Source of the DNA: Terebella lapidaria | Taxonomy: Eukaryota > Annelida > Polychaeta > Terebellida > Terebellidae | Reading direction: 5' to 3' | Length of the DNA: 64,000 bases | Assembly (NCBI GenBank): GCA_949152475.1 | Contig: OX424566.1 | Coordinates: 10,129,177-10,193,176 of the forward strand | In this document: positions 1,028 to 39,098 of the stretch, piece after piece | Layout of the letters: the number at the start of each line of letters is the position of its first letter | Position numbering within the stretch: the first letter of the stretch is position 1 | The notes under the pieces: model-generated | Told to the model about the DNA's origin: nothing | Databases searched by the model: none | Seen by the model: only the letters and a program-made list of their open reading frames with translations | Position numbers and translations under genes: made by a program

Positions 1028-2846
1028 CACAGTGCCGAAACCGACTATGGTAACGCGCATTACCATAATCAAAAATGGCGGCAGGTATTTGTGGTTCGAA
1101 TTTGATCGAGCTTAACAACTTGAATGAGAGGGTATTTTGAAGCATTCAAAAGTCTGTGATATAAAGTTGATTGTGCTGCACATAATTAATCAGGCGGGTT
1201 ACGGAAAAATAGGCTTTTTCTACGAGATATCGGTGACTGAAAATCGTGGCTGACTATGGTAACGCCCGAGTCAAAGGATACATTGACTATGGTAACGCAT
1301 AGTGTCGACTATGGTAATGCATTCACCACTTCACTGCAAATAATATATATATAACACAAGAATTGAACTATAATTTATACGATATTCGTATATTTACTAC
1401 ATTGAATAGGTCTATTTCAGGTTACAGTGCATTTCTTTTCTTTAAACTGCATATACTGGGTGTAGTACCGTGCTGAAACCCATGCTGACATCGTGAGATG
1501 TAGAACCACCGAGTCGCATGTGATTAGTCCCGGTTATTAGCTGACACTTGGTAATTTGATGACAACAGGATCGATGGACTGAACACAGTTTGCGAATGAT
1601 CTTCCAATATATGAAAACACAGTCCGTCACTTTCCGACGTCACTGCCCTGAATACAGGAACAAGGACAAGGGTGCGTCGGACTAGTAAATATTAAAATAT
1701 TTGAATAAAATGGGACACTTCTTACCCCTCTCACATCAGTTGTAAGAAAATTGCCTCGAGCTAAGTTCTCTACTCCTCTTACTACTCTGTGTATTTATCA
1801 GAGATAAAAGTTGGCGGACGGATAGAATGGCATCCACATTTAAAATTGGGGTGCAAATTCCCAGAGGCCCAAAGAGCATGGTCCCAAACTCAGTGCCGAC
1901 ACACTGGTATTAATATTTACCCAGACAAACATGGTTTGTTCTCGATAGGATAAAAGGCCTAGATAAAAAAACAAGATGAACTTGCCACAGGTATGACCCA
2001 CAGGTCCAACACACTCCTTTTGTAACCTCTAGTTTGCCTTCTCTCGTATTTTAGGCAAGATTGTTGTCGTGAAAAGGCACAAATCACACTCAAAAATCAT
2101 CAATTTACATGCGACTCGAACGCACAGTGTGACCAGTGACGCCGCGACCAGATCGCATGCGATTGGCGTGCAACCGAGTTGCCGCAACTGACTCGCACAG
2201 TCTGAGGGCAAGCTTAAGTCAAACCTGCATATTCCCCCGTTTTTGAAATTCCTCAATATTTCTGACAATTTGATGGGGAAATGCACAGATTTGTGAAAAT
2301 TCAAATGGGGCTTTATGCCAGACCCTGCGTTTAATTGACAACTTGGTGTTTTTCATCATGTGTAGCATAGGTCTGAAATAACAACATTCATGGAGTTGCT
2401 GCCCTGTGTACAGTAATAAAGTCACATATAGTTTGTTTAACATGGATTTGTGATAAAATAACAGATGATTCGAGAGTCTTCAACACATATATTCTACCCC
2501 TCAAATCATTGTTATGTTGACAAAGAATTGCGTTTGTGTACGAAATCCCTATCGCATTACCATAGTCATTAATTTTCCTACAAATCACATTACCGTAGTC
2601 TGACATTCGCGTTACCCTAGTCAGGACACAATTGTCCACACTCCGTTTTCACTAATATATCACTAAGTGACTCATTGCACGTAATCGGGAATAAACTACA
2701 TGTATCGGTTTCGCTATATTTCGAAGATCCCCTCGATTTATGCACGTTATATGCATATAAATTCACAAACGAATTCGAACCACATGTGCCTGTCGCCATT
2801 GTTGACTATGGTAATGCGCGTTACCATAGTCGGTTTCGGCACTGTG
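1028..2846. mobile_element. TIR transposon with CACAGTG ends and 5-bp TSD
   Basis: Long terminal inverted repeats of about 75 bp start CACAGTGCCGAAACCGACTA and are mirrored at 2770-2846. The element lies inside a satellite monomer and is flanked by ATTTT on both sides (1023-1027 and 2847-2851). Intact neighbouring monomers read gccattttgtcc, which gives the empty site directly. Subterminal copies of gactatggtaacgc occur near 1251, 1284 and 1306, with inverted copies near 2555-2620. No convincing transposase ORF is seen (only ORFs under 100 codons), so it is non-autonomous. CACAGTG termini with a 5-bp duplication resemble Transib/RAG-type elements; that assignment is inference. Confidence 0.85.
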
Positions 2847-4180
2847 ATTTTGTCCTGTGACCTTGAAAATGGGGTCAAAGGTCAAATTCAAGGTCATCAG
2901 AATATTCAGCATATATCATTTCCTATATGTCCACAATTGATTCCTAAGCTGTAGAGTCGATAATAAGTGAGATATTAGCCATTTTGTTTTGTGACGTTGA
3001 AAATGAGGTCAAAGGTCAAATTCAAGGTCATGACAATAATCTGCATATATCATTTCCTATATGTTGATAACTGATTCCTAAGCTGTAAAGTCGATAACAA
3101 GCGAGATATTAGTCATTTTGTCCTATGACCTTGAAAATGGGGTCAAAGGTCAAATTCAAGGTCATCAGAATATTCAGCATATATCATTTCCTATATGTCC
3201 ACAATTGATTCCTAAGATGTAGAGTCGATAATAAGTGAGATATTAGCCATTTTGTTTTGTGACGTTGAAAATGAGGTCAAAGTCAAATTCAAGGTCATGA
3301 CAATAATCTGCATATATCATTTCCTATATGTTGATAACTGATTCCTAAGATGTAAAGTCGATAACAAGCGAGATATTAGTCATTTTGTCCTATGACCTTG
3401 AAAATGGGGTCAAAGGTCAAATTCAAGGTCATCAGAATATTCAGCATATATCATTTCCTATATGTCCACAATTGATTCCTAAGCTGTAGAGTCGATGATA
3501 AGTGAGATATTAGCCATTTTGTCCTGTGACCTTGAAAATGAGGTCAAAGGTCAAATTCAAGGTCATGACAATAATCTGCATATATCATTTCCTATATGTT
3601 GATAACTGATTCCTAAGCTGTAAAGTCGATAACAAGCGAGATATTAGTCATTTTGTCCTATGACCTTGAAAATGGGGTCAAAGGTCAAATTCAAGGTCAT
3701 CAGAATATTCAGCATATATCATTTCCTATATGTCCACAATCGATTCCTAAGCTGTAGAGTCGATAATAAGTGAGATATTAGCCATTTTGTTTTGTGACGT
3801 TGAAAATGAGGTCAAAGGTCAAATTCAAGGTCATGACAATAATCTGCATATATCATTTCCTATATGTTGATAACTGATTCCTAAGATGTAAAGTCGATAA
3901 CAAGCGAGATATTAGTCATTTTGTCCTATGACCTTGAAAATGGGGTCAAAGGTCAAATTCAAGGTCATCAGAATATTCAGCATATATCATTTCCTATATG
4001 TCCACAATTGATTCCTAAGCTGTAGAGTCGATAATAAGCGAGATATCAGCCATTTTGTGCTCTGACCTTGAAATTGAGGTCAGAGGTCAAATTCAAGGTC
4101 ACGAGAATATTCAGCATATATCATTTCCTATATGTCCACAATTGATTCCTAGTCTCTAATCTCAATATTAAGTGAGATAT
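2847..4180. repeat. 134-bp satellite array, right part
   Basis: About ten further monomers follow at a 134-bp spacing (TTCAAGGTCA blocks near 2884, 3018, 3152, 3285, 3419, 3553, 3687, 3821, 3955 and 4089). The dimeric A/B alternation is very regular here, and copies are nearly identical, which suggests recent amplification or gene conversion. Most monomers carry AGGTCAAAGGTCA (for example 3006-3018), a direct repeat of AGGTCA spaced by one base, plus two TCAAGGTCA-type half sites. Confidence 0.9.
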
Positions 4181-4639
4181 TAGGCATAATGTGTCCCATT
4201 ATAAAGCATATGAGAATTTAACATGGGAAAGTCCCATTTGGGCTGAGTTTGGGCCAAAATGGTCCACTTCGAGCGATTCAAGCGCAACGAAATTTATAGT
4301 CATCATAGGAGTACATATCAGGAGTGTTATGTATCAAAAAAAAAAAAGTTACTGAACAGATTTTGAGAAAATGGCCACCAAAGTCCAAAATCAGGCATTT
4401 TTTGTCGAAAACGGCCGCCATTTTGATAAAATGCGAAAATAAAAAAACTAAAAAATACCTCCTTCTTGAATTATTTTTAAGTATTTTTGTGCAAAATTTC
4501 AGAAGAATTCGCCCGTAAACAAAAAAGATAAAAATGTGGACGACGACGACGACGGACGACGACGGACGACGACGGACGACGACGGACGACGGACGCAACG
4601 CCATGCCAATAGGTTATCGGACCATAGGTCCGGTAACCT
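4181..4639. repeat. 3' tail of composite element with GAC microsatellite
   Basis: This is the unique tail shared with 7500-7920: gtgtcccattataaagcat, then AT-rich sequence with 'atggccgccat' motifs, then 'gcaaaatttcag'. It ends in a GACGACGGAC microsatellite at about 4538-4595 and 'gacgcaacgcca'. The small ORFs on both strands here are low-complexity artefacts. Confidence 0.75.
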
Positions 4640-4739
4640 AAAAATACCTCCTTCTTGAATTATTTTGTTGCAAAATTTCGGAAAGATTGGTCCGTAAACA
4701 AAAAAGATAAAAATGTGAACGCCGACCATAGGTCCGGTA
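4640..4739. repeat. Partial duplication of the element tail
   Basis: This repeats the last part of the preceding tail (aaaaatacctccttcttgaa ... ggtccggtaacct) without the microsatellite. The element end is therefore present twice in tandem. Confidence 0.7.
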
Positions 4740-6550: not shown

Positions 6551-7925
6551 AAAGGTTACCGGACAATATATATTTTAGATATTAACCTTTTTTTCCATGA
6601 TCTTGAAAATAAGGTCAATGGTCAATTCAATGTCAGCATATATCCTTTCTAGTATGTCTGCAATTAATTCATAATCTGTAAAGTCGATGATTAGAGATAT
6701 TAGCCATTTTGCGATCTGACCTTGAAAATGAGGTTTAAAGATCAAATTCAAGGTCACCAAAATATTTGGCATATATCATTCCCTATATGTTCACTATGGA
6801 TTCCTAACCTGTGAAGTCGATAATAAGGGAGATATTAGCCATTTTGTTCTCTGACCTTGAAATTAAGATTAAAGCTCAAGTTGAAAGTCATGAAAAATAG
6901 CATATATCATTTCCTATACGTTAACAATTGATTATCAAGCTGTAGAGTCGATAATAGGAGATAAATTACTCATTTTGTGCTTTGACCTTGAAAATGAGAT
7001 TGAAGGTCAAATTCAAGGTCATCAGAGTATTCGGGATATATCATTTTCTATATGATCACAAAAAATTCCTAAGCTTTAAAGTAGAAAATAAGTGAAATAT
7101 TAGCCGTTTTGTGCTCTGAGCTTCAAAATTAGGTCGAACGTCAAGTTCAAGATCATAAGAATATTCAGCATATATCATTACCTATATGTTCACAATTGAT
7201 TCCTAAGCTGTAAAATCAATATGCGAGATATCAGACATTTTTTGCTGTGACCTTGAAAATGAGGTCAGAGGTCAAATTCAAGGCCATAACAATATTCAGC
7301 ATATGTCATTCCCTATATGCCCACAATTGATTCCTAAGCTGTAAAGTCGAAAATAAGCGAGATATTAGCCATTTTTGTACTGTGACCTTGAAAATATGAT
7401 CAAAGGTAAAGTTCAAGATAATGAGAATATTCGGCGTATATAATTTCCTATATATCAACAATTAGCTGCTAATATCTCATTTCAATATTAAGTGAGTGAG
7501 GAATAATGTGTCCCATTATAAAGCATAGGAGAGTTTAACATGGGAAAGTGCCATTTGGGACACGTCGATGGCCACCACACACAGCAGGCCGATTGAAGGG
7601 CAACGAAACTTATACACATCATAGAGTTATATAACGAGAATCTTTTGAAACAAAAATCTCAAAAATTTCAAAACAGTTATTGAGAAAATGGCTGCCAAAT
7701 TCAGAAATTGGTCGTTTCACGTTGAAAATGGCCGCCATTCTGAGAAAAATGGGGAAATAAAAAAAAAACTAAAAATAGCACCCTCTTGAAATATTTTTAG
7801 GTATTTTTTTGCAAAATTTCAGAAAGATCTGATTGTAAATTTTGAAGATAAAAACGTGGACGGACGACACTGACAGACGATGGACGCAACGCCAACGCCA
7901 TTCCCAGTCATTAGTTGCGTGAGTA
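6551..7925. mobile_element. Second, degenerate copy of the composite element
   Basis: It begins with GGTTACCGGACAAT, the same end as at 61. About seven diverged 134-bp monomers follow (6600-7460), then the shared tail from 'gtgtcccattataaagcat' (about 7507) to 'gacgcaacgccaacgccatt' (about 7905). The terminal GGTAACCT is missing. Monomers are much more diverged than in the first copy and the microsatellite is short, so this copy is older or has escaped homogenisation. Confidence 0.7.
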
Positions 7926-8386: not shown

Positions 8387-8470
8387 TCAGGCCTTACATG
8401 ACAAGGATTTTTCAACAACACGGACATGCACCCGGACACGGACTCGGAGCATGGACGAATGGATGGATAG
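8387..8470 (-). CDS. Probable terminal exon of the cGLR-Schlafen gene
   Basis: An acceptor (cattttcttaaag) ends at 8471, and the phase-0 frame from the previous exon runs 27 codons to a TGA at 8389-8387. The peptide is rich in alternating Arg-Val because of a short gtccgtgtcc-type repeat, so coding character is weak. A GTAAGG donor near 8401 could instead splice onward. The 169-bp intron to the previous exon begins GTGAGT. Confidence 0.4.
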   Translation of the reverse strand, partial: LSIHSSMLRVRVRVHVRVVEKSLSCKA

Positions 8471-8639
8471 CTTTAAGAAAATGAAGTGAGTAGGTGATTT
8501 TGCTGATGTAGGTTGCTGTTGTATGTGTGCAATTTGTTGTGAGACATAGACAATATATTTGTGTCTGATTACCACTAATTCCTGATGTAATTTTACATAC
8601 TGGCCATTGAGCGGACTTAATGTAGGTAAAACTACTCAC

Positions 8640-11285
8640 AGGGTGTAGCAAATCCATCTTCATGTGGTGGGCGACTTCAACGCTGATTGGGACATCCACA
8701 ATGAAGATCACTCTGGACACGCCTCTTGATGCCACAAACGTTCTGTACTTTGGGTTCCGCAGGTGGTGTTTCGTTCTTTTGGGCAGCATGGCAGCAAGTC
8801 CAGCAAATTTTCCTTTAACATTTTGTTCTCTGGTGATGCAAATGCAAACTTTTCTGTCGAAACCCATGAAGTTGTCTAAGGTGTCTATTGTGATTCCTTC
8901 AATGGGAAATTTTCCAGCAGAGTGGATTGAATATGTTGAATAGGCCTTGAAGATTGTTTGCAAGCGATCTACATCATGTTTGGCGTCTTTGGTGTCGACT
9001 AGTATTGCTATGTCTCGCGCAGTGTACACATTATCTTGTCTGGTCACCGACCCTGATAGCTGTGACTGTGTCAGCTGTAACAACTGGTTAGTGTTACTCT
9101 CCTCCCAGACGTTGTCGATATGCTGTACTTCCACGTCATGACCTTCATGTAATGACGAACAACCTATCTTATCCCGAGACCCGGCTCGTTTGTCGCTGTC
9201 TGATGCTGATGCCACTAAAAAAGATGATACTCTTCTACTGTTTCTGTGGATGTCATGCAGATGGTGTTCAGAGGCAAGGTCTTTCCTTTTCATTTCTTCA
9301 ATGCACTTCTTCAGACCTCTAAGATCGGCATCGATGAAGTTCTGATAGTGACTGTCAACAAATATGTACACTTGGCATGATTTCTCTTTGGCCATCAATA
9401 GGAATCTTTTCCAGACTCTGTATGAGCAAGCAAGTTGGTGTCCATCGTCGATGATGATACATCTACAGTTTTCTAGATTGACACTCTTGACAAGTCTCTC
9501 CATATCAGTCTGGTTGCGAACCAGTTCTGGTATGCAATTATCTTGGAAGCGCAAATAGCTTTGGAATGTCGTAGTAGAGCATATGTACAGTACCTGGTTG
9601 TGGCTGTACTTGGAGCAGATGTGGAATGCCATGTATGTTTTCCCTGAACCGGGAGGTCCCTCTATCATGACAAACCATGCAGATGCTGACTGCAAAATAA
9701 CCTCCAGTTGATTTGCAGTCAAGTAGACGCCAACATCTTCGCCAAAGCAATTCCGATGGTATGATTTCTTGTGGATTAACAATTGAGCTAATGTTTGCAG
9801 CATCCTCTTCCCAGTAGTGCATTCTTGAATGACTGCTTTCGAGTAACGATGAACTTCATGATGTGATAAAGCATATACATTACACTGAATGTGCATATCA
9901 CCACAGAATGCTGTCTTCGTCAACTTCCCTATCGTCACTGCATAATGCCACATCTCGTCTGAGTTATTACCATCGATGTCGTTGGCCACGCACCACAGAC
10001 CTATTGTGTCAGTCTCATCAAAGATCACGATATCCATCACATGGTGATTTGGGACAGGCATTACCATTCCAATATCTGCTTGTCTTGGCCAAGACTCGCA
10101 CACGAATATGAGAGCATTTTTGGAATGGTTTTTGCTCTCGATGCTTTCGAACAGTGCATCCATATTAGGATGTCGGAGAATGATGGATTCCTTGGAAGGG
10201 ATAAATGTCCACGGAGATGTCAGCTTGAGGATGGTGTTCTCACTTTCTATCAGTTCTGCAACAGTATTATCGACATCAATCGCAGTGTGTCGCAAATGTC
10301 TCTCCCAGTCCTGCTTGTTGGTTGTCCATCCGAGCAATTTTTGTTTCTGTAGATTCTTGTTGGCTTCTGAAATTGGTACACTATCTATCTTGACAGATGT
10401 TTGGGCGTTGGGTTGAACAGCTCTTTCACCGGTAATACCAGTAGACATGACATCATCCTGCCTCGACATACTGGCTTCATTTGCGCCCTCCTGAGTAATA
10501 CCAGTCAGTTCCGTGGACCTGGCTCCATCTTGACTTACGATACTAGTTTCCTCATCTTCTCCATGGCCAAGATCTGTCGGCTTTGTGGGTGTGGCTGCAT
10601 CTTGCCTTGTCCATACCTGTCCTCTGCTTTTGTTTGCAGGATCTGTCTTTGGTATGTTTCCGTCATCTTCATTCATTTTTCCTTCCTGCTTTAAGTCTTG
10701 TTTGTCTATTGCACACTCTAAAGTTGTCAAATGTCTTGCGTCTGATCTTCTGGTTGCATAAGTATCTTTTGATTCAATCCGTCCTTTCTCCATGATGTAG
10801 TATGTGTGGAGTGTCATGTGGTGCTGATGCTTCTTGCCAGTTACAATATTTCTGATGTCATCATCTTCATGCAGTGCAACCTCAGAATCACCATCGACAT
10901 AAGGCAACTGGATTTGTGATGTTGTAAGTGACATTTTCTGTGAGAATTTTGGTACGTGTAGAACAATTTTGTAAGGCACCTTTTCGTCATCCAGAAAATT
11001 GATTTTCTCTACAATATCACAGTATGTAGCGAACTCCATGAAGGCTGACTTCCAAAGTGTTTGTTCCCTGGTATCAGTTGTGTCTGGATCATACACCTGG
11101 AGTACTCCACCCAATGTGTTTCCCAGAGCATAGACAAGCTTCAGCATAACACAGAACGTCTGGTTACAACCCTGTCCACTGAAGTGAGCTGGCACACGGA
11201 ATGTGTCTTCTATGTAATCCAGCTCCTTGTCTGGTACCTCTTCTATGCACTGGTTCACATCTTGATCAAGTTCACTGATACTCCA
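8640..11285 (-). CDS. Schlafen-like exon: AlbA_2-like core plus SF1 helicase
   Basis: This single 2,646-bp exon encodes 882 residues. Numbering below is from the open frame at 11303. Residues 30-70 resemble the Schlafen/AlbA_2 core, with the ALGNTLGG turn at 59-66. Residues about 180-315 are a polar, repetitive, probably disordered linker. ESWPRQADIG near 403 resembles the SWADL motif. The helicase has Walker A GPPGSGKT at 549-556, VLYIC at 571, a Walker B-like IIIDDGHQ at 616-623 (Asp where SF1 enzymes usually have Glu), IFVDS at 647, an arginine-bearing HDIHRNS near 683, TLDNFMGFDRK at 808 and a C-terminal FVASRGVSR at 856. This order matches long, helicase-bearing Schlafens. These act on tRNA, rRNA or stalled replication forks in vertebrates. 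It is flanked by a 'ttctattgtacag' acceptor and a CCT|GTGAGT donor. There is no ATG before the core domain, so it is an internal exon. Confidence 0.8.
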
Positions 11286-11423
11286 CTGTACAATAGAAAC
11301 CACAAAAAATGGTAAAATTGTGTGTTAAACATAACATATAATCTGAAATATATCTATAATCCACAAATATCTATATACATTTATACTTCACAAAAGTGAT
11401 TAGGTTAAGGCCAATATACTGAC

Positions 11424-12754
11424 ATGAGACAGCAAGTGGGCCGTCAGTAAGCACTGAGTCTTTACGTTGTCCACCAGCTGCGGGACGTGGTATATTTGCC
11501 GAGCCCAGGTTGCGACAGAAACTAGACTGATTCGGGACTCCAAGAAAAAGTGTTGGACGTCATGTTTTCCTGATGACAGGTACCAGAAAATATCAGCGAC
11601 CAGTTGCAGTGTGATCTTCTGTTTTTTTTCTGGACCATGAGAAGATGTGAAGGTCCCATGCATCTTACTGGCTAGGGCCAGTGCAATGTGCGTTATGGCA
11701 GCAGTGTTCACCGATATTGCTTTCTTGGTCATCTCCTTGTAGTTGTCGCCAGTAGTGGGTGTGAGAAATGCATGGCCATATTTCATCACTTCGGTTGTTT
11801 GCTTGCTTGGTTTACCCAGTGCATCAACGATTCGCTTCATGATCTTTGTCTCTTGTGGCGTTGATGTCAAAGAGGAATTTACGGCAGATGCCATCAAACT
11901 TGCCATAGTTTTACACATAACAATGCAGCTTTTGAAAGGCGTGTCATGTGAAAGATGAGGCATCAAGTTTGTAGCTTCATAGCAGGCTGTGGTTAATTCC
12001 CACTGATTCGAAATCGGATTGGGAAACAGATATATGCCTTCAAATCGAAATATTTCTCGTGGCATCGCATCTCGTATTTGCTGATATTTCTGGGTGATCT
12101 TTCTCTTCATGACCTGCTCATCTTTTGGTGGCAGCTGGAACATAGGTGTGATATCTACTGAGATCTCACGTGCTTCACCCTCCGGGTCCCAGGTGAGTAG
12201 CATTGTTGTTGCTGGGCCATTGTACCGTATCCCGCTGAACTTCGGCGAACAGTAGCCACTATGTGCCAGTCGAGATGGCAGTTTTATTTTGCTGAGGATC
12301 TCATGGACATCTTGGCCAAATTCCTCTCGGAATTCTCTGGCATTTAGGGTCTTGTTTTCTTTCTCGACATGGTAGATATGTGACTTTGAGGCGACATTGA
12401 TGACATTTGACTTGTCTCGATCAAGCAAATATGCCAAGTCTAATTCATTTAATGATTGGATTTTTAATTGACTCTTGGATGATCCTATGGAGATGAATTT
12501 ACCACGGTATTCTTTCGCCTCCAACCCGTCATGGATATCTGCTTGTAGCTGTTCCAGGTCTATGACCAAGTCCTGGTCAGAATCTTTGAATATCAGCACG
12601 GAATCATGAAGGTATACGGGACTCAATTTAGACAAGTAATCGTGAAAAGGCGTGTGCTTAAGTTGTTGGTCCACTTTATATGTGACACCATCCTTCCCAT
12701 TCCCTCTTTGTTGGATCTCATAAAATGATCTCTCCACGTCATTTGCTGATAGAG
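11424..12754 (-). CDS. cGAS-like receptor (cGLR/Mab-21) nucleotidyltransferase exon
   Basis: The exon encodes about 444 residues. In the open frame from 12851 the nucleotidyltransferase signature is GSS at 123-125 followed by NELDL at 135-139, so E136 and D138 are the first metal ligands. ISVDIT at 230-235 supplies the third, D233; this last motif closely matches the one in animal cGAS. A helical C-lobe follows (about 285-465). The Zn-thumb of vertebrate cGAS (H-x5-CC) is not seen, as in many invertebrate RNA-sensing cGLRs. The expected activity is synthesis of a cyclic dinucleotide or related messenger on binding a nucleic-acid ligand. The acceptor 'caatttcttcacag' is strong. A GTCAGT donor at 11423 joins in phase to the Schlafen exon; if it is unused, the frame ends at TAA (11402-11400). 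Confidence 0.85.
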
Positions 12755-12924
12755 CTGTGAAGAAATTGTGAACATCCAACAATACCATGAAACACCATTT
12801 TGAAATCGTCATATATCTCAGCACTATACGCCTCAGATTAGTGGAACTCATATTGTCAAAAGTATGTATAAAATGATGTACTGGTAAATGGGAAAGTTAC
12901 AATTTATGCATCTTGGAGCCTTAC

Positions 12925-12991
12925 AATGGGACGCCATTCCAAGTCCATTCAATGCTGTTTCTTTTTGATTGAGAAACCGTGTTGCTTCATC
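12925..12991 (-). CDS. Small internal exon upstream of the cGLR exon
   Basis: This 67-bp exon lies between the acceptor 'ttcttgtacag' and the donor CATT|GTAAGG. It encodes 22 residues plus one base (begins DEATRFLNQKE) and ends in phase 1, exactly the phase required by the acceptor of the cGLR exon at 12754. It starts in phase 0, matching the exon at 13894-13796. It probably forms part of the helical N-lobe leading into the nucleotidyltransferase core. Confidence 0.7.
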
Positions 12992-13795
12992 CTGTACAAG
13001 AACATATATTTATTCATTTTGAGATGTAATTGTTTTCATTACATTCGTCATATTTACTGAATGGTTAGGTATTTTTGTACACACGATAATTTTAATTCTG
13101 CAGCTTGTCTCTGGACGATCTACCTTGTCAGTTCTGAAATGCCTCGATTGAGCAAATGAGGATCATAATGTTACACATAAGTTGACATCATAACGAGTTT
13201 ACCAGCTATGCACGGGTGAGTTGGGTCTGATATTGGATATTAAAACATGTACAATTATACCTGTAAATGATGCTCATGGAATTTGGGCACAATTGGCAGT
13301 GGACATATTTCGAGTAAATGAAAAAATGAACAGTGCAAATTATGCACACTATTTTCGGTTTAAATTTGTAAGGTAACCGCATAAATTTGTATTGAGTACA
13401 ATATTACATGGGTTTTATAAATATTCAAAATCCATGTTCTCTGGCTCAGATGATGGTATAAATTTGAAGATTTATTTTCAAAAATAACTTCAGAAAGTGC
13501 TTAATTTCACACCCCTTACGTTAATCATTTTAGACTATGGGGTATTTTAGATTTTGTTGCTAGAATAACAAATGTCCACTTAAGTGAAGTAGCCTGGGAG
13601 TGCAAACATGCTTCGTTTGATATACTGGCAACAACGGCAATCAGTCTGGTTAATTATAGTTGGCCGTCAGTACAAGGAATTCAACTACTTTCTTATAATC
13701 AAAATTGGAAATGTATATCAACACAGCCCACACATGGCTTGTTCCCTTTAATATATTCGCAACTTGAATATAGCAGAACAAGCAGCATGACTTAC

Positions 13796-13894
13796 TGGGT
13801 CCAATAACAGGATGGTGACCCGAGACTTGACAAAACGCTCGTGATAGTCAAGAATGGCAGTGTAGTGGGTGACATGACCGGGTGCAACATTCCA
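13796..13894 (-). CDS. Internal 33-codon exon of the cGLR-Schlafen gene
   Basis: This 99-bp exon is flanked by a pyrimidine-rich acceptor (ttctgcctttccag) and a consensus donor CCA|GTAAGT. It encodes 33 residues in phase 0 (begins WNVAPGHVTHY, ends ILLLDP). The signals at both ends are the best in the gene. No domain is recognised in the peptide. Confidence 0.7.
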
Positions 13895-14177
13895 CTGGAA
13901 AGGCAGAATCTTGATTTTGTTATCAAAATGCAAGTAAACCGGAAATATATATTATACAAGTTCAGCTGTGTTTGTGCTTAGGGATGGTGGATTAATTCCA
14001 GAGAGTAAATTGCCTTCCATGCGATGTAGATGATTCCCCTTGAGAGGGGAACAAGTTATTCCTTAAACCTAACCATAATAAATTTATAGCTGAATTGTAC
14101 AACAATTGAACTATCCCAAACGGCACCAAAAGTTGTCCGAGTTTCACAAATTACGTCAACAAACTTAAAGTACTCAC

Positions 14178-14238
14178 CAGAATGAAGGATTTTGAAGATG
14201 ATGAGAGGAATGAGGAATAGCAGATGAACACACTTCAA
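14178..14238 (-). other. Candidate 61-bp exon of uncertain status
   Basis: It has a good acceptor (gttgttgttttgcag) and donor (CTG|GTGAGT), and its open frame is strongly hydrophobic (LLFLIPLIIF). Its 61-bp length breaks phase: including it between the 15631-15497 and 13894-13796 exons creates a stop in the latter. It could be an alternative exon that would truncate the protein, or a chance match. Confidence 0.3.
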
Positions 14239-14283
14239 CTGCAAAACAACAACATCAATATTCTACTCAGATCAATATGTGAG

Positions 14284-15214
14284 TACCGTATTTCCTCGAT
14301 TAAGGGCCCGGGCGCTTATTTTTTTGAGCACCTTTTACCCCGGCGCTCATACGAGGCAGGCTCTCATTCGAGGCCCGGCGCACATTGTTATATCATATGT
14401 TATCAGTGCGCGAAAAATTTTGGGCCAAACAGACGTTGCCCATCGGAGGTATGAAGCAAGAAATTGATGCACAGTTTTCACGCAAATTAAATGGAACAAC
14501 TGTGATGTATTGATTACGATGTACATGTAGTATTATCATAAATGCAATCGATACAACAAGATATCTATGACGATAATAAAAGAAATCTTCGGCAAACGTG
14601 AAATAATATGAAGGCAAAGAAATGTTCAAAAGAAAATATCGCATCAGTACTGAGCAAAACCATTACAATATTCGAGCGCTTTAAACGGTGACACACTGAT
14701 CTGAAGTAGTAAATCTGCTCAAGGAAGAGAGCTGACATGACTGTTTGGAAATCGATTTGTTAATTGTGTAAACTTTCATGTGTATGTTTTCACAACAGCT
14801 TCCCAACATGTTGATTGGTGACGTGATGGCGGTCATTATCAAGATCCTGTGCATTCAGACATTTTATGATGTGCCGCTTGTGGCTGAAACGGGGAAGGGT
14901 GGTGTATAGAAGGAAATGTCTAGGTTTGTTTGGGTAATCTATGTTCTTTTGTATATGTTCTTTTGTAATCACAGTACACGTTTCACACAAAATTATCAAC
15001 CTTTACCATTTAATAAGTGTTAATTCCAATCAAGAATTTGCTTGCCGGCAATTGCCACCGATATACTTTGGATTCACAAGACCAAATTCAGTTGAGAAAT
15101 CTTTGTTCTCCAGCCATACCCGGCGCTTATTGTTTTAAATCACTGGTAACCCCCAGCGTTCATACGAGACAGGCGCTCTTTCGAGGCCCAGGGCTCAATC
15201 GAGGGTATACGGTA
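14284..15214. mobile_element. Intronic TIR element (about 0.93 kb), TA target
   Basis: The ends are TACCGTATTTCCTCGATTA and, inverted, TACCGTATACCCTCGATT. Subterminal blocks of 'gggcgctta ... cgaggc' occur at both ends (14300-14380 and 15120-15200). If the outer TA is the target duplication, the TIR begins CCGTAT, as in Tc1/mariner-like MITEs. No transposase is present. It lies in the first intron of the cGLR-Schlafen gene. Confidence 0.7.
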
Positions 15215-15496
15215 ATAATTTTTCATCATCATAGAACACACTCAACAACAATCAACACTGAATGAATAATCCTAATTAAAGCAATTTCACATCCATTTTT
15301 CATTGCCTGTTCTTTATACATTTTTGGCCCACACTGCAATTGTTAAATTGAGGTGCACAGAAAAGCTATCGAGGATTGAGCAAAGAATGCCAGAATGTAA
15401 AGAAATTGTGTGCCGGCCCGTGTTTGTTTGTGTGCAATAACTGAATGACTATGTATGATTATATTCTGAATCCCATCCATATGAATGAACACTCAC

Positions 15497-15631
15497 AGCA
15501 ATATTGATCAACATGAAAGTGTCAGATGATTTACAAGCAGCTCGTAAAACTTCTCCGTGGTTTTCAATGAAAATCTTGATAAATCGCTCACGTAAATTTA
15601 TTACAGGCATACCACCAATTATCCCCATCAT
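15497..15631 (-). CDS. Probable first coding exon of the cGLR-Schlafen gene
   Basis: It encodes 45 residues (begins MMGIIGGMP) and ends at a good GCT|GTGAGT donor in phase 0, which joins in frame to the exon at 13894. A TGA stop lies immediately 5' of the first ATG in frame. The second ATG has A at -3 and G at +4, a strong Kozak context. The peptide is predicted helical (RERFIKIFIENHGEVL). No signal peptide is apparent, so the product is probably cytosolic or nuclear. Its link to the downstream exons rests only on phase and order. Confidence 0.5.
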
Positions 15632-26595: not shown

Positions 26596-27348
26596 TGTGA
26601 TAAATATCGTTCTATGGCCGATATCAGGCCGAAATGTCTGTGATCGCTGTGCTAAATCACAAGGCCGGCAGTAGCAGTTCAATAATTTATTTGGGCGACA
26701 ATGTCCAATGATCCAGACAGTCACATCAAGGCCGCAAATACACCTACGTCCGGTGATTCCCCGTCAATAAGGTAGCCGAAAACTATGGTCCTTCTTTATC
26801 ACAATTCACGTATAAATAGTCCACAATTATTCCAAGTATTCCACACGAGCACGGCCAAACTTCTTAACAATACTTCAACACGTCTATACTCTATGACCGT
26901 TTCTACTCAACTCTTAGAAAAACTGCGGGGCCGGCAACATGTGGTGTAGACTTTCCCGCCAAATGCATGCGGTGTTGTGATTGGTCATGTATGTGCTGAT
27001 GTGTGCTGATCTCACCGGGAAAGTGGGTTTCCCCGGCGCGTGAACGAGACTTGTTATGCTTATATCTGTGCACGTGATGTGAGCGGTGGGTGTGTCATGT
27101 TCTATGTTTAGAAGTTGGTGCTTGTGAAGGTCAAGGCCGAAACTAACTGGGTCGATGTACTGAGTGAATGGGGCCGCAAGTGCATGTGGATTGACCTGTG
27201 TATGTAACCATGACTACATGGAGTTTATGCTTGTGATCGTATAGTCTGTACCTGTCCTGTATGTAAGTCATGTAGAATGAATGTTTGTTGTGAAATATGT
27301 ATGCGCGGGAGGGACGGGGGTTACAGTCGCTAAAATTACTACATTACA
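26596..27348 (-). repeat. 3' LTR of the Gypsy element
   Basis: On the plus strand it starts TGTGATAAATATC and ends CTACATTACA. It aligns without gaps to 39099-39850. The single visible difference is T at 26768 against G at 39271. A minus-strand AATAAA (26686-26691) lies about 120 bp downstream of a TATTTATA box (26811-26818), which defines a plausible U3-R-U5 layout. Confidence 0.95.
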
Positions 27349-27886
27349 CCCCTTCATTAATTCTACGCCCTCGGAATTACCCTACCCGGACCCTACCGTC
27401 GCCAAAAACTAACAATAAAAAGCTAAGAAGTCCTACAGGGTCAAACCCCAACACTCACACACACACGCCGCGCGACAATGGTAAAACACTTCATACAATA
27501 AAAATTTCTAGCCGTCAAAATAAACGTCATCAGTCAGTCCGTCAATAGTCGCTACGATGATACATTTACACATACATGCACAACAACGAATGATGAGATA
27601 TGAATGGAATGTATGAACAAAACTCCTCGACGCTTCAGAGTGAAACGGAAACTAATTTAGAGTCTATAAACTGAAAAAGAATTGTCTGGATTAACCTTAA
27701 CTAAATTACATGAATAACAACGTGACCAGGATGATATTATTATTTACAACTATTTACATATATATGCTATTTATGGCCGACATAATAAGAGGCCGACATG
27801 TCAATAGGCCATCGTGACCAGGATTTTCAGAGGCCGACACAATCGAGGCCGGCAATTGTCTGTTTGTCACCACTGGGCCGAAACGT
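27349..27886 (-). other. Gypsy 3' untranslated region and polypurine tract
   Basis: Directly before the 3' LTR the minus strand reads AATGAAGGGG, a polypurine tract. The next 70 bp are strongly conserved in the second element at 63930-64000. Near 27776-27853 the plus strand carries four ggccg copies plus a variant ggcc within about 80 bp. No ORF of note is present. Confidence 0.75.
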
Positions 27887-30565
27887 TCACTCCTTCTGGC
27901 CACGCTTACTGGCAGGAGGTGGTGGTGGTGCCGGTGACGCCTGCCGCATCAGTTGTTGTTGCTCCTCTGGTGGCAGACGGGGCAAAATCGACACAATAGT
28001 GGCGAGCAGGTCGCCCGGGATAGTGGTACCCGAGTCGCTCTGTGTCGCGGCCGTATCCGTCGAGGTCGAAACTGGGGCCGACTGTTCCAGGTGTGTCACC
28101 CGGGCACGTAGCTGTACATTTTCCTGCCGCAAATCCTCATTTTCGTCCTCGAGACGATGCAACTGCCGACGTAAGTGGTCGGTCTCTTCCTCGAGCCGAT
28201 CAGGGAAGGTCGGGAGATGCCGTTCGTGAAGGACTCCCATCCCGAATCCCACAGAGAGGCCGTTATATTCAGCCTGCCGAATATGCTGGTCCATGGCTTC
28301 TAAATAGAAGCGCCGGATCTCCCGAAAATGTTGGTGCGCCATGTCGTCGGCGCGGGCCAAATATAAAGTCGGAAGATGCTCGCTCTTCCGGGCCGGCAAG
28401 ATCAACGGGTCAGCGTTGTGGGCCGCCTGGGCGATATGGGACTCCCAGTGCTCCTCGTGGACACGGGGAAGATTCGGAAGCTGGTTCGCTTCCCGACTCC
28501 TGAGTGGGTTGGCCAGATCCGGGTTCTGCCCTGGCAGGGCCTGTAGGCCGGGAATCATACGAGTGGACAACCGAGTCCCGTGTTGCTGCACGAACTGGAT
28601 ATCAGCCGAAAATTCTCCTGAGCCGTGAAACGGCAGCCGTTCATCTAAGTCTCTGTGGAGAGGTTCTAGCGACTCAGGTTCGTCGTACTGTAGTCGCGGC
28701 CGATCAGCAGCCGAATCCTTGGTGACGACCGTTTGAACGATCTCCATGCTGCCGTCCAGATATGGAGGTTCGTCCGTCTGGAGGACCGTTCGCCTGGACG
28801 GAAGGGGCGAATCCTCACGGTCGCTGACCGAGGCCGAAATCGATTCGTGGTGGGCTTCCTCCGCAGCCGGCTGTAGAGGTGGAGGAGAGTCCCGCGACTG
28901 GGCCGTAACTTCTTTCCGGTCGGTCTCCTGACCTGTCGGAGGCGTTGCCGACAAAGGAGGGAATTCCTCCGGTGGGGGAACCAATCCTCCCCTCACGCGA
29001 TAGTCTGTTACATTCGTCGCCGTAGGCCGCTCTACCACAAGTTTCCGTGGGATAATATCCGAAGGCCGAGTCTGCATCTGAGCCGTCACAGGAGTGGACT
29101 GAGCCGATGGCTCCGAAACCACGGAGCTGGGAGGCTTGAGTGCGTCCGTTTGGTAGGCGACTGGCCGAGTAAAGAATATCGTGCTAGGCCGACGTACGGT
29201 CACCCAGCGATTCATCGCCATGATGTCGTTCACCATCCGAGCTAGGCGATCCTCCTCCGCTCGGGTTGAAGGCCGAAGGTATTCAAGGCGTCGGAGCACT
29301 TGATGAATTTCCGGGGCCGAATTCGGGGGATACTGGTCGAACAGTGGAGGCGCCATGTGCCAAATCCCGAAAGTCAATACTCTGTTGACATCCCGTCGGA
29401 AAATTGGAATGTCGGCCGGAACACGTGGGGGCCGATAATTTGGGCTGGGCTGCATGTCTACGCGGCAGCGTAGCGCGAACCGTTGTAGCATAGGGCCGGA
29501 AGCGTTGAGCTGTCCCTGCTCAAACAGCAGGAGAAGGCCGACGTGAGTCTGAGTCGCCTCACTCAGGTGCCGGATCATGTCCTCCGACGTAAGCGTGACG
29601 AAATTGTCTTTGGCCGGACAGACGAAAAATCGCAGGAGCGGAAAATGGTACGCCAGGACGTGGGCGTCCAAATCCGAGGCCGAACGGAACGGTCCACGTC
29701 GAGGTACTGTTGGCCATATCCTCCCTGCCTCTCCATCCTCCTCTCCGATGCAGAAAGGACACAGATAACGGCCGTCGTCTCTCCTTAATGGTTCCAAGGT
29801 CGCCAAATTACCCTCCGTCAGCCGTGAGGGTGCGCCGAAATTATGTTCATGGCCGTAACCATCATGCCGATTCCGAAGATGGAACGGAACGTCATTCCAA
29901 TCAATCGGCCGAGCTTCGTACGGGGTGATTGGGGCCGGAACTAGAGCCATGAGCTCCGATATCTGGCGACGATAAGCCGAAGCACGCGTCACAGGGCCGG
30001 AACTAGCGCGTCGTGAATTTCGCGCCGACGGGTGAAGATTTCTGCCGGACGATGAACTTGCTGACGAGGCCGAAGACTGTGCCGGTGACGTGACGGCACG
30101 GGGCCGAACTACCGGCGTTGTTGAGGCCGAAGATACTGGGGCAGGTTCGATTGGTGTTATCGCCTGCCGAGCGGGAGCCGATTTTGCCGAGCTGGCGGCT
30201 TCCGTCGCGCGTTGAGCCTCCAAGGCTCGACGTACAATTTCTCCACCTTCCTCTAACTGCCGAAAACGATCCGGGTCGTCCTCTGAGGTCGGACTCGGGG
30301 TGTGCCGGGAGCCGCGTTGCGCCAGCCTTGCCATGATTTGGTATCGTGGCTGTTTCTTTGAGCCGGAAGCCGTAACTGCTTGTTCCGAACTAGGTTCGGG
30401 GCCGATAGCGGACATTTCATCGTCCGTCAACACGATGGGGTTGTCTTGCTCGTCTCCTCGTTCAACAACCTCGACCGTTAACTTAGTGCCGTCAAATTTG
30501 ATAGATCGGGGCCGACTATCAGCGGAGCCGTCACTGTCTTTATCATTACTCGGCTTATCCGCCAT
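27887..30565 (-). CDS. Gypsy third ORF, 892 residues, env position, unknown function
   Basis: This is an intact 892-codon ORF downstream of integrase on the same strand. The ATG is in a strong context (ccgccATGG). There is no signal peptide or membrane segment, so it is not a typical envelope. The N-terminal 200 residues are Ser/Ala/Pro-rich and charged. C269-x2-C272 with H302-x4-H307 forms a candidate Zn-binding site with an unusually long spacer. The middle is Pro/Ser-rich. Residues about 790-828 are a leucine-zipper coiled coil, followed by a short helix and a PPPPP run with a basic tail. This suggests an oligomeric, nucleic-acid or protein-binding accessory protein. A spliced subgenomic mRNA would be needed; an 'aaaattacag' acceptor-like site lies about 50 bp upstream. 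I do not recognise the family. Confidence 0.8.
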   Translation of the reverse strand: MADKPSNDKDSDGSADSRPRSIKFDGTKLTVEVVERGDEQDNPIVLTDDEMSAIGPEPSSEQAVTASGSKKQPRYQIMARLAQRGSRHTPSPTSEDDPDRFRQLEEGGEIVRRALEAQRATEAASSAKSAPARQAITPIEPAPVSSASTTPVVRPRAVTSPAQSSASSASSSSGRNLHPSARNSRRASSGPVTRASAYRRQISELMALVPAPITPYEARPIDWNDVPFHLRNRHDGYGHEHNFGAPSRLTEGNLATLEPLRRDDGRYLCPFCIGEEDGEAGRIWPTVPRRGPFRSASDLDAHVLAYHFPLLRFFVCPAKDNFVTLTSEDMIRHLSEATQTHVGLLLLFEQGQLNASGPMLQRFALRCRVDMQPSPNYRPPRVPADIPIFRRDVNRVLTFGIWHMAPPLFDQYPPNSAPEIHQVLRRLEYLRPSTRAEEDRLARMVNDIMAMNRWVTVRRPSTIFFTRPVAYQTDALKPPSSVVSEPSAQSTPVTAQMQTRPSDIIPRKLVVERPTATNVTDYRVRGGLVPPPEEFPPLSATPPTGQETDRKEVTAQSRDSPPPLQPAAEEAHHESISASVSDREDSPLPSRRTVLQTDEPPYLDGSMEIVQTVVTKDSAADRPRLQYDEPESLEPLHRDLDERLPFHGSGEFSADIQFVQQHGTRLSTRMIPGLQALPGQNPDLANPLRSREANQLPNLPRVHEEHWESHIAQAAHNADPLILPARKSEHLPTLYLARADDMAHQHFREIRRFYLEAMDQHIRQAEYNGLSVGFGMGVLHERHLPTFPDRLEEETDHLRRQLHRLEDENEDLRQENVQLRARVTHLEQSAPVSTSTDTAATQSDSGTTIPGDLLATIVSILPRLPPEEQQQLMRQASPAPPPPPASKRGQKE

Positions 30566-31942
30566 GGCGGAAGCCGCAAACCAATGTCACTTCACACAGC
30601 TAGGCCGACTGTAATTTTTATCCCAAATATCCGACAACTATTCACAAACTTCACCAGTTCAATGTCATTAAATGCCACGTAAATATCTGATAAATGTTCC
30701 GAATCAATACAAAGTTTTTCTCCGTACTAATCGAGCTCCTGCTACTTCAGAAGTTCAGGCGCAAATGACCTACTTGCCGTTAATTTCCACTGCCGTACAC
30801 TGAGATACTTATCTGTATCCCAATTCCACGAATCGGGCCGGGGGGCGCTCTCTGCCGATATACAAAAACGTCTTTACGCTGTATCCCATTGTTCCAAGTG
30901 TATCTGCAACAAGGCGGGCCGTCGTCAAGGAAACGCTGGTCGATCTCTCTCTGACCTATTTGGGTCAGTCCATTACGACAGTAGGGGGATCCTCACACTG
31001 TCCATTTTTCCGAATGTCCGTCTGCCGTCCCCTGGATTACACATTCCTATACATTGTCTATTTGTGCTAATCGACTGTTCAAATTACTGGGCTCTTTTTG
31101 CCCGACGACTCACTATTGTCTTTATCAGGGGAGATTTCATGTGGGTGCTGTAAACAGCTTAAATGTTTATCTGCGCTCGTGCGAACCTTGTGAACTGATT
31201 CTTTGATCGTTCCTTTTCTCCCTAAGTTAGCGCACAATAAACTAACGGCCGAATTGCTGTTTCACAGACGACACACAGTTATTAAAGGCTGAGACATTAA
31301 TGTCAATCACTCACAGGGGCGGACTTCGTTCCATTCATTTTCAGCCAGTTCACAAGACAACGGGGCCGCTAATATTGTCGGGGTCGAAATTGCAATGATC
31401 AGGGTCGGTCACACCGTGGCGCTTTGGATATTTTTGGGTGATGAATTTGATGACAGGCCGCATCTTGGTATGATAGCTATTTAGTGACTGGTTCCCGTAC
31501 CACTGGGCCGTTCCTCCGAATACTACATGGAGTGGGTAGAGGCTCGGTCGACGCATACCGAACGAATCACACTACCACCTCTTCGACAAATAAGTGGCCT
31601 TACTCACGGCGTGACATGAATTATTATCCTCTTCGGCTGGCACATGGATAGAATCTGACATGATAATCTTAGTTAGTGCGTAACACACGCGGAACAATAG
31701 CATACGTTATACGGGGTCGAAACACATATCATAATGCAATCAATTTTTCACCAGCATCGTAATTATGAAATCATATCAAGTGTATATATGTCGAATTCGC
31801 CTCACTGACATCTTGTACATATTAAATGCATATATATTGTTATTGTAATATATTATATTATTATGGGAAAGACATGATATCATAGTCCGTTAGACATGCA
31901 TAATTCATCATCAATAGCATCAATCAGATAACAAGGCCGGGG
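30566..31942 (-). other. Gypsy spacer between integrase and third ORF
   Basis: About 1.4 kb without a convincing ORF; the part next to the integrase stop (31780-31930) is very AT-rich. It may hold the splice acceptor for the third ORF. A 68-codon minus-strand frame near 31350-31556 has no recognisable content. Confidence 0.5.
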
Positions 31943-33883
31943 TTATCTGTAGCGGGCCGGTCTGCGTGCGTTGCGTTTGGGTCGACTTGGTCGTGCAGGC
32001 GGGGGCGTAGCCTCGCTTGTCTCGGGGTCGGATGATATCACAGGCTTTTGCCTGCGTGTCTTGCGTGCCGGTTTTGGTGTGTCGAAACTTGATCTGCGTG
32101 ATCTTTTCCGTTGCCGATGACGACTTGAGCCGGATGAAGTTGGAGATCGCGATTTACGATCTTGGGCCGCTGACGAGTCAGACTCAGCTGTTTGGTCTGT
32201 ATCTGTATGCCGATCTTGCACTGTGACCTCCCAGGGGTAGTAGAACTCCTTGAGGAGCCCCAGGGGGTCGGCCGATTGCTCTGAGCCGGATTTGCTTGAC
32301 GATGTCGAAGGTCGTACAGGGTCGGAATAGATGTGAGCCGCTTGGTTGTCACCTTCGTACGGTTTGAGTACGTCCAGATGAACAACACGAGTGTTCCGAG
32401 GGTTGGAAACCAAGGCGATCCGGTAATCTACCTCAGTCACACGGTCGACGATCCTCCAGGGACCAGTCCAAGGCCGAGCGAACTTATTATTCTGCGTGAG
32501 GGGCAGATAATAATATCGGACCAGTTCTCCTGGTTGGAACTGTGGTCGAGGCTTGGCGTGGGCGTCATAACCCATCTTCTGCCGAATTGCCGCTTTCTCA
32601 AGATGGTCTTGAGCGAATCCGTGGGCCGTCCTGATCGCTTGCCGCAAGTACTCCACATACTCTGGGCCGCACGGGGGTAGAGGCTCAGGGTCGTAGGTCG
32701 GAAACATGAGGTCGACTGGCAAGTTACACTCGTGTCCATACACCATCAGATGCGGGGTGCATCCCGTGGACGAGTGTACCGAGGTTCGATAGGCCATTAA
32801 CACATATGGCAGGTGCACGTCCCAGTCGTTCGCACGATCGCTGACGAATGCACTCAGCATGTTGAGCAATGTCCTGTTGAATCGCTCAACCTGGCCGTCG
32901 CTCTGAGGTCGATATGGGGCCGTGCGGATCTTCTTAGCGCCCAGAAGACGCACGACATGCCGAAATAGAGCCGACTCGAACTCGGTGCCCTGGTCGCTAT
33001 GGATTGCCTTGGGGACGCCATGATAAACTATCCATCTGTTTACCAGGATGTCGGCAACATTTTTGGCGGTATGTCGCCGCAGCAGGAAGGTGTCCGTATA
33101 TTTCGTGAAATAGTCCGACACAACAAGGATATACCGATGGCCTCTTCCCGTGACTTTGTGGGTGTCGAGAATGTCCATCGCGATCCGGTCGAAAGGCGCT
33201 CCTGTCGGCAACTGTGTCAGAGGCGATCGTTTTGGGACCGGTTTTCCTTTGCGGGTGACACATTGCGAGCAGCGGGCACACCAGCGGGCGACATCCAGTG
33301 CCAGGCCGGGCCAGTAGAATCGGCGCCTGACTCTCTCGATGGTTCGCTGAATGCCGAGATGTCCGACAATCTTCAGGTCGTGAAGTTGGTGCAAAACCTG
33401 CGTTCTGAGTGCTACGGGGAGCACGGTTTGCACCACAGGCCGTCCAGCGGGGTCGGGTTTTACGTGCCGAACTAGTACCCCGTCTTGTAGCGCCAGGAGG
33501 CTCCATCTGGAAACAAGTGTTTTTACCTCCTCCCCATGGCGCGCTACCTCCTTAGAGTCTGGTTTAGTGCCGATCAACATCCACTGTCGCACTTTTCCGA
33601 CGCTCGGGTCGGCTTGCTGTGCCGCGACAATGTCCTGAGCCGAATAGTCCGAAAGCCACTTTTGCCCATCAAGTGTGGCGTCCAAAGCACGGACTCGAAC
33701 AACTTGGCGTGCCGAAACTAGTTGGGGCAAGACCGGTGATGTTATGGAATCACTGTTCAGGAGGTCTGCCCTTGTCTTAGCCGAAACAACAGTGATCCGA
33801 CGAACTGGAAGTTCTCCGAAACTTGTCTCTGGGTCGGTCGGAGGTGTGTCGAGTCGTCCGGGACAGTCTTGGTGTTTGCAACT
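31943..33883 (-). CDS. Gypsy pol, C-terminal part: integrase
   Basis: The frame encodes a Zn-binding HH-CC domain (H117-x6-H124 and C154-x2-C157, numbered from codon 33730). The DDE core is D186, D246 and E282, with exactly 35 residues between the last two. A GPW/GPY-type segment follows (GPWRIVDRV). The tail is basic and Ser-rich; no chromodomain is seen. The frame is open upstream to 33883, where it abuts the RNaseH end in another frame. The ORF has no ATG near its start, so it is the continuation of pol and not a separate gene. Confidence 0.9.
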   Translation of the reverse strand, partial: SCKHQDCPGRLDTPPTDPETSFGELPVRRITVVSAKTRADLLNSDSITSPVLPQLVSARQVVRVRALDATLDGQKWLSDYSAQDIVAAQQADPSVGKVRQWMLIGTKPDSKEVARHGEEVKTLVSRWSLLALQDGVLVRHVKPDPAGRPVVQTVLPVALRTQVLHQLHDLKIVGHLGIQRTIERVRRRFYWPGLALDVARWCARCSQCVTRKGKPVPKRSPLTQLPTGAPFDRIAMDILDTHKVTGRGHRYILVVSDYFTKYTDTFLLRRHTAKNVADILVNRWIVYHGVPKAIHSDQGTEFESALFRHVVRLLGAKKIRTAPYRPQSDGQVERFNRTLLNMLSAFVSDRANDWDVHLPYVLMAYRTSVHSSTGCTPHLMVYGHECNLPVDLMFPTYDPEPLPPCGPEYVEYLRQAIRTAHGFAQDHLEKAAIRQKMGYDAHAKPRPQFQPGELVRYYYLPLTQNNKFARPWTGPWRIVDRVTEVDYRIALVSNPRNTRVVHLDVLKPYEGDNQAAHIYSDPVRPSTSSSKSGSEQSADPLGLLKEFYYPWEVTVQDRHTDTDQTAESDSSAAQDRKSRSPTSSGSSRHRQRKRSRRSSFDTPKPARKTRRQKPVISSDPETSEATPPPARPSRPKRNARRPARYR

Positions 33884-39040: not shown

Positions 39041-39080
39041 TGCCGGTAAGTTAGGGTCGGTAATCCGAGACTAGCTCAGA

Positions 39081-39097
39081 TCCTGGTCACGGCACCA
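39081..39097 (-). promoter_or_regulatory. Primer-binding site, tRNA-His-like
   Basis: One base after the 5' LTR the minus strand reads TGGTGCCGTGAC, then CAGGAT. The first 12 bases match the complement of the 3' end of animal tRNA-His (...GTCACGGCACCA). Confidence 0.8.
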
Positions 39098-39098
39098 A

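Follow-up and report, generated by a model that had tools for sequence, protein, structure and literature searches.

cGAS-like receptors (cGLRs; the animal Mab-21 nucleotidyltransferases, PF03281) and Schlafens are the described families closest to the locus presented here, which lies on the minus strand of a 64,000-nucleotide stretch of the genome of the annelid Terebella lapidaria (assembly GCA_949152475.1, contig OX424566.1, positions 10,129,177-10,193,176; below, the window). Judging from sequence comparisons, the locus very probably holds one spliced gene that encodes a cGLR-Schlafen fusion protein, and its family numbers at least 27 copies whose first half is intact; this degree of confidence concerns the gene and the family, and the rival mechanisms discussed below overlap with it. 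Compared with cGLRs, a C-terminal Schlafen part has been added. Group III Schlafens (SLFN5, SLFN11, SLFN13 and SLFN14) resemble the locus in their N-lobe, their linker with a Ser-Trp motif and their helicase, whereas here no AlbA_2 lobe is recognisable and a nucleotidyltransferase stands in front. Cyclic-oligonucleotide-based antiphage signalling systems (CBASS) consist of separate genes and use a diffusible messenger. They likewise link a nucleotidyltransferase to a second immune enzyme, but in T. lapidaria the exons of both parts belong to a single reading frame, and because they form one chain the comparison with CBASS can serve as an analogy only.

Residues E209, E214 and D252 of SLFN11 are situated in its AlbA_2 lobe. 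A study of this protein names them as its nuclease residues and reports SLFN11 as a single-stranded DNA receptor with the binding site in the helicase part (PMC11615386). Cyclic-dinucleotide biochemistry has been joined to a Schlafen domain before, in the poxin-Schlafen of orthopoxviruses (PMC7688311). By their descriptions the two cases differ: there a viral nuclease destroys cyclic GMP-AMP (cGAMP), and in T. lapidaria a cellular Schlafen is preceded by an enzyme of the cGAS type. In the main text of a survey of cGLRs, 87% of these proteins stand alone, and the fusions named are TPR, ankyrin, death-domain and multi-cGLR architectures; rare architectures are pooled as 'Other', and the words 'helicase' and 'Schlafen' are absent from that text (PMC9980059). 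Within the sections available, neither Schlafen nor helicase occurs in a study of eukaryotic cGAS/DncV-like nucleotidyltransferases (PMC10732462), and helicase does not occur in one of choanoflagellate cGLRs and STING (PMC12424679). The open-access literature searched, outside of which lies the rare-architecture Table S2 of PMC9980059, contained no report of an animal cGLR-Schlafen fusion.

The junction and the gene family

Two open frames of 498 and 970 codons (counted from stop to stop) lie head to tail and are separated by an interval of 138 bp (11423-11286), which begins with GTCAGT and ends with TTCTATTGTACAG (GTCAGT...TTGTACAG), the reading frame being in phase 0 on either side of it. 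This arrangement had been proposed in an earlier reading of the letters alone (the sequence-only reading) and is confirmed here, as is its remark that no ATG precedes the Schlafen core: the first Met of the Schlafen exon (exon S) is residue 47 of that exon and falls within the core domain. The donor and the acceptor of the interval are moderate, each being in the top 7% of the GTs or AGs of the strand when scored with general consensus tables. By themselves, the splice signals make a weak case.

The family of copies in the same genome makes a much stronger one. A search of the 761.6-Mb assembly (438 contigs) gave at least 69 matches to exon S (51 of 225 candidates scored) and at least 97 to the first half (88 of 109 scored), both counts being lower bounds because only part of the candidates was scored. 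After removal of second pieces of one gene (18 rows for Schlafen, 11 for the first half), 29 of the 86 nucleotidyltransferase places among the matches listed were followed on their own strand by a Schlafen place no more than 30 kb downstream; these pairs used 29 of the 51 Schlafen places listed. The nucleotidyltransferase exon (exon M) is intact in at least 27 copies (L021-L047, L021 being the window), all 27 free of stops and with a GT donor after codon 443 (19 GTGAGT, 4 GTAAGT, 3 GTCAGT and 1 GTATGT). In 20 copies an AG acceptor in phase 0 and the first Schlafen codon follow after 107-189 bp; in five more (L038, L044-L047), whose first half is down to 47% identical to that of the window, the Schlafen exon follows after 89-172 bp. 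Position and phase of the junction are therefore kept in all 25 short-interval copies, the window included, over intervals of 89-189 bp and on seven contigs. None of these 25 intervals could be translated through: a length not divisible by three prevents it in 15, and in-frame stops do so in the remaining 10.

Purifying selection acts on the coding sequence to either side of the junction. The median ratio of nonsynonymous to synonymous substitution rates (dN/dS) is 0.25 for exon M, where 249 of 351 pairs were in range, and 0.34 for exon S (169 of 171 pairs from 19 copies, the frame-shifted L011 left out); next to the junction, the pooled ratio is 0.14 over the 30 codons that precede it (23 copies) and 0.22 over the 20 that follow (19 copies). 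The distances between copies are correlated between the two halves (r 0.88 for the 17 short-intron pairs and 0.80 for all 19, near-identical copies contributing to the agreement), and none of 5000 shuffles reached r in either case. In a tree of 42 first-half proteins, the 22 fused ones stand on one side of a branch with an SH-like approximate likelihood-ratio (SH-aLRT) support of 100; the tree covers this genome only, leaves out five near-duplicates and was built by a quick method that gave a long-branch warning. The simplest history is probably a single fusion event followed by spread through duplication.

In two places, a window-like nucleotidyltransferase exon is found with a Schlafen exon of another subfamily (L024, at C13:8203365, with L016, and L025, at C2:58148277, with L009). 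Recombination may have re-paired the halves here; alternatively, each case could be a pair of half-deleted neighbours. Unfused Mab-21/cGAS-like genes were seen in clusters on C5 (about 6.4-15.8 Mb) and C1 (84.41 Mb) of the assembly, the latter with four tandem copies of nearly equal score at a spacing of 2.2 kb.

Identity of the two halves

The predicted structure of the first half has a cGAS-type nucleotidyltransferase fold, and the active-site residues Gly-Ser, Glu, Asp and Asp are invariant in the 22 fused exons aligned, with the GS motif, Glu-x-Asp and the distal Asp aligned with those of cGAS. A profile of 42 first-half sequences, 20 of them unfused relatives, reached 39 distinct sequences in the PDB, all named cGAS or cGLR except 4jlx and 4kb6, which are labelled 'Uncharacterized protein', 4kb6 being titled porcine cGAS. 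In the profile alignment, a gap stands opposite the Cys-rich insert of human cGAS. Such a zinc-binding thumb insert is a feature of cGAS proper, and the lack of a counterpart therefore makes this an enzyme of the cGLR type and not a cGAS orthologue. A PDB sequence search with the first half of the window gene gave no match, and AlphaFold2 run on the single sequence returned no usable model (predicted local distance difference test score 34). With PF03281, the unfused relative L058 scores 27.6 bits, above the curated cut-off of 24.1; at E<=0.01 the family is matched by 25 of the 42 aligned members and not by the fused L047 or the unfused L056 and L073. From fold and active site we assign the first half to the cGLR type and take a PF03281 score below the cut-off as a limit of that model.

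The Schlafen half matches SLFN11 (1.3e-06 by sequence and 3.4e-10 by profile) as well as profiles of the bacterial defence helicases AbiO (4.7e-11) and Nhi (1.9e-09). The helicase domain PF09848 is found at E<=0.01 in all 17 fused copies scanned; against a cut-off of 24 bits, L018 is above (32.0) and the window and L009 are below (20.6 each). Of 20 exons S, all but one have an intact Walker A (19), the exception being L011, which is frame-shifted. Profiles of parts of the fused copies were compared with five unfused Schlafens (L076-L079 of this genome and the database sequence P0001), the E-values referring to these five sequences. With the linker profile, E-values ran from 4.6e-16 to 1.3e-25 for L076-L079, and P0001 was recovered at 6.6e-4; the helicase profile was clear in L076-L079 and reached 1.4e-27 in P0001. 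With the N-lobe profile, L078 was matched at 5.9e-7, L077 (0.0012) and L079 (0.0045) weakly, and P0001 (0.026) and L076 (0.35; this copy is cut at its 5' end) not significantly. In the PDB, the N-terminal half of the Schlafen part found a chance-level match only (E 0.38).

The AlbA_2 lobe (PF04326) was detected at E<=0.01 in none of the 17 fused copies, and profile comparison gave no match either. Among the three unfused Schlafens scanned, L078 and L079 pass the PF04326 cut-off and L077 is just below it. As no AlbA_2 lobe can be recognised, the second half would be a nuclease-less Schlafen derivative, and the predicted order of domains is cGAS-type nucleotidyltransferase, Schlafen N-lobe, linker and helicase. 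The unfused Schlafen L079 (open frame 1107-4640) appears by eye to have two consecutive AlbA_2-like segments.

Several observations weigh against a single functional fusion gene of this kind. The halves are 20-21 kb apart in L024 and L025, and some loci are damaged: in exon M, C9:30008763-30010517 (L048/L049) has stops and L050 is not one open exon; in exon S, L011 carries a frame shift and L014 one stop. The window shares its GTCAGT donor only with L022 and L023, 23 of the 27 copies having GTGAGT or GTAAGT. The PF03281 score of the window exon, 17.2 bits, is below the curated cut-off, and a profile built from the fused exons only reached no cGAS in the PDB by sequence; the proposed link to the cGAS family runs via the predicted fold and via relatives that are not fused. 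With a median isoelectric point of 6.3 (n=27; window 8.1), exon M is not strongly basic, and nucleic-acid binding by it is therefore not evident. In the protein database, searched by shared 5-residue words, the joined protein had a single match at E<=10 among the 7991 candidates sharing most words, namely P0001, a Schlafen with AlbA_2 and without a nucleotidyltransferase. Exon S alone had no match there at E<=0.001 and the first half none at E<=0.01, and no relative was among the 111 and 21 pattern matches in viral contigs. Set against these points, the junction conserved across the intact copies (n=27) and the cGAS-fold model strongly support one protein with cGAS-like and Schlafen parts, as the sequence-only reading had proposed.

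Extent of the gene and other features of the window

The conserved coding region starts at the acceptor TTCTTCACAG, which is followed by CT (12755/12754), and a CAG acceptor at the end of intron 1 is present at the same place or 3 bases off in 24 of 27 copies (L021-L044). Some 160-200 bp upstream of this acceptor, the pattern ATG GCN TCC CA. N is followed by a GT donor in matching phase. The strict pattern occurs in 14 of the 27 exon M copies, the window included, and adding the variant of L022 and an exon of L033 found by hand, about 5.8 kb upstream and within L055, brings the count to 16; neither the strict pattern nor the hand search found exon 1 in the other 11. The predicted 5' end of the gene is exon 1, and the 12851-12755 stretch of the first frame is intron. 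The modelled fusion protein begins with MASHSLSANDVERSF and has 1330 residues up to the end of the Schlafen exon (Table 1).

Four further exons, up to 15631, had been proposed upstream, and they are not supported as parts of the gene. As a coding exon, 12991-12924 is rejected, since an in-frame stop interrupts it in 13 of the 17 loci that were matched; it is stop-free in the window, in the close copies L022 and L024, and in L038 (a weak match, E 0.39, located elsewhere). Because the sequence before the ATG is open in the window, L022 and L024, this subgroup may have a longer N-terminus. Among the 27 copies, the 14237 exon has a convincing match only in L021, L022 and L024, and the 13892 exon is whole only in the same three and partial in L026, L028 and L031. 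For the 15631-15449 exon, which lies beyond the loci compared, a nucleotide comparison with sequence upstream of five copies gave no match. Two of the exons (15631 and 14237) have a coding potential close to zero and the 13892 exon a weak one, and a Pfam scan of the joined peptides from the upstream exons gave no match. At the other end, all 20 loci examined have a phase-0 donor for intron 3, either GTGAGT or GTAAGT, which stands at the same codon or two codons further along, and no last exon shared between copies was found within 1.5 kb. The extent of 8387-15631 given earlier should accordingly read about 8640-12937, plus a last exon presumably somewhere below 8639.

Table 1. Predicted features of the fusion gene, in window positions
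Feature	Positions	Strand	Basis
Exon 1, coding part: ATG GCG TCC CAT T, donor GTAAGG, phase 1	12925..12937	-	ATG and donor pattern
Intron 1, 170 bp, GTAAGG...TTCACAG	12755..12924	-	conserved CAG acceptor; coding similarity begins there
Exon M: Mab-21/cGAS-type nucleotidyltransferase domain, 443 codons and 2 nt	11424..12754	-	
Catalytic motif GSSKSQLKIQSLNELD (Gly, Ser, Glu, first Asp)	12438..12485	-	invariant in 22/22 aligned fused exons
Third catalytic Asp, motif ISVDIT	12147..12164	-	Asp invariant in 42/42 aligned
Fusion intron, 138 bp, phase 0, in-frame stop at codon 8	11286..11423	-	position and phase in 25/25 short-interval copies
Exon S: Schlafen part, 882 codons, open	8640..11285	-	SLFN11 and PF09848 matches
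Schlafen core N-lobe	10740..11243	-	profile against five unfused Schlafens; hhalign probability 91%
Variable stretch, in place of the AlbA_2 lobe of unfused Schlafens	10386..10739	-	pooled dN/dS 0.82
Schlafen linker domain, CESWPRQADIG motif at 10100-10068	9846..10385	-	profile against unfused Schlafens
Schlafen helicase/ATPase domain; Walker A GPPGSGKT 9659-9636, Walker B IIIDDGH 9458-9438	8640..9818	-	
Intron 3 donor GTGAGT	8634..8639	-	donor in 20/20 loci

Short GC-rich palindrome-like elements of the GGCGCTCATACGAGGC type are visible by eye at 14260-14470 and 15020-15260, amid the upstream exons formerly proposed. Just downstream of the fusion gene lie three arrays of one 134-bp satellite (112-1027, 2847-4187 and 6633-7463), 268 bp being the better period in the middle one. 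Elsewhere in the window, 26596-39707 is a long terminal repeat (LTR) retrotransposon whose LTRs are almost the same (no difference over 172 bp and few beyond). It has motifs of reverse transcriptase and integrase, recognised by eye, and an extra open frame of 899 codons (27887-30586) between the integrase frame and one LTR. A 42-bp minisatellite occupies 60331-60957, with a 126-codon open frame running through it.

Possible mechanism and significance

The structural claim of a spliced fusion can be made strongly from the comparison of copies; the functional one is a proposal. We tentatively suggest, as a possibility not far short of an even chance, that the Schlafen part senses and the nucleotidyltransferase signals, since the helicase part, which holds the single-stranded DNA site in SLFN11, has been kept, the nuclease lobe is absent and the active-site residues of the nucleotidyltransferase are present. 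The Schlafen helicase would bind or scan foreign nucleic acid, and its movement would release the attached nucleotidyltransferase, which could then make a cyclic dinucleotide or a related messenger, and this in turn would activate STING or some other receptor. As the nuclease lobe is missing, the output would be signalling and not tRNA cutting. The sequence-only reading had seen in the locus a sensor-effector recalling CBASS; two enzymes are indeed joined, but a sensor paired with a nuclease effector appears unlikely because the scanned copies have no AlbA_2 lobe, and CBASS stays an analogy.

The main rival on mechanism concerns the same gene and is rather unlikely in our estimation. Here sensing would fall to the nucleotidyltransferase, whose product or movement would switch on the attached helicase, which would act directly on viral RNA or DNA or on translation with no need for an outside receptor. 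The retention of the helicase motifs (Walker A in nearly all exons S) and the matches to AbiO and Nhi agree with such a direct effector; the nuclease lobe, however, is missing from 17 of 17 copies scanned, and the known nuclease activity of Schlafens should then be absent.

It is improbable that the locus gives two products, the interval being often retained so that a stand-alone nucleotidyltransferase ends at the stop at 11402-11400 and the fusion is one isoform. The GTCAGT donor of L021-L023 makes intron retention possible in the subgroup of the window, and a polyadenylation-like hexamer, TATAAA, stands at 11385, right after that stop. Across the family, though, the tail after the donor is not conserved: the first stop falls anywhere from codon 4 to codon 24 in 20 copies, and the intervals of L044 and L045 contain no stop at all.

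Vertebrate MAB21L proteins are thought to be structural or ligand-binding, without second-messenger synthesis, and the Mab-21 half of the fused protein might likewise make no messenger. Exon M is not basic and its catalytic activity is a prediction, which leave room for this idea; the invariance of all active-site residues in the fused exons makes it quite improbable, slightly more so than a retained interval. Finally, two separate genes that happen to lie side by side, with a distant 5' exon for the Schlafen part and an in-phase junction by coincidence, would fit the moderate splice signals and the two copies with halves 20-21 kb apart, but are hardly credible given a junction kept in position and phase in every short-interval copy on seven contigs and halves that co-diverge.

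If sensing by the Schlafen part is correct, the family could represent a new class of animal pattern-recognition receptors, a helicase-gated second-messenger synthase in which a nuclease-less Schlafen reads nucleic acid for a cGLR and which has expanded to about 27 copies, possibly re-pairing its halves; we regard this as conceivable, though on the doubtful side. cGLRs and Schlafens are two well-studied antiviral families for which a physical link in animals was not found reported in the literature searched, and their fusion suggests a new wiring of virus sensing in animals. Poxviruses fuse a cGAMP nuclease to a Schlafen, and a host fusion of a cGAS-type enzyme with a Schlafen suggests that evolution has coupled the two pathways more than once. 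A large family with several near-identical copies would offer a natural test of whether Schlafen helicases can sense without a nuclease.

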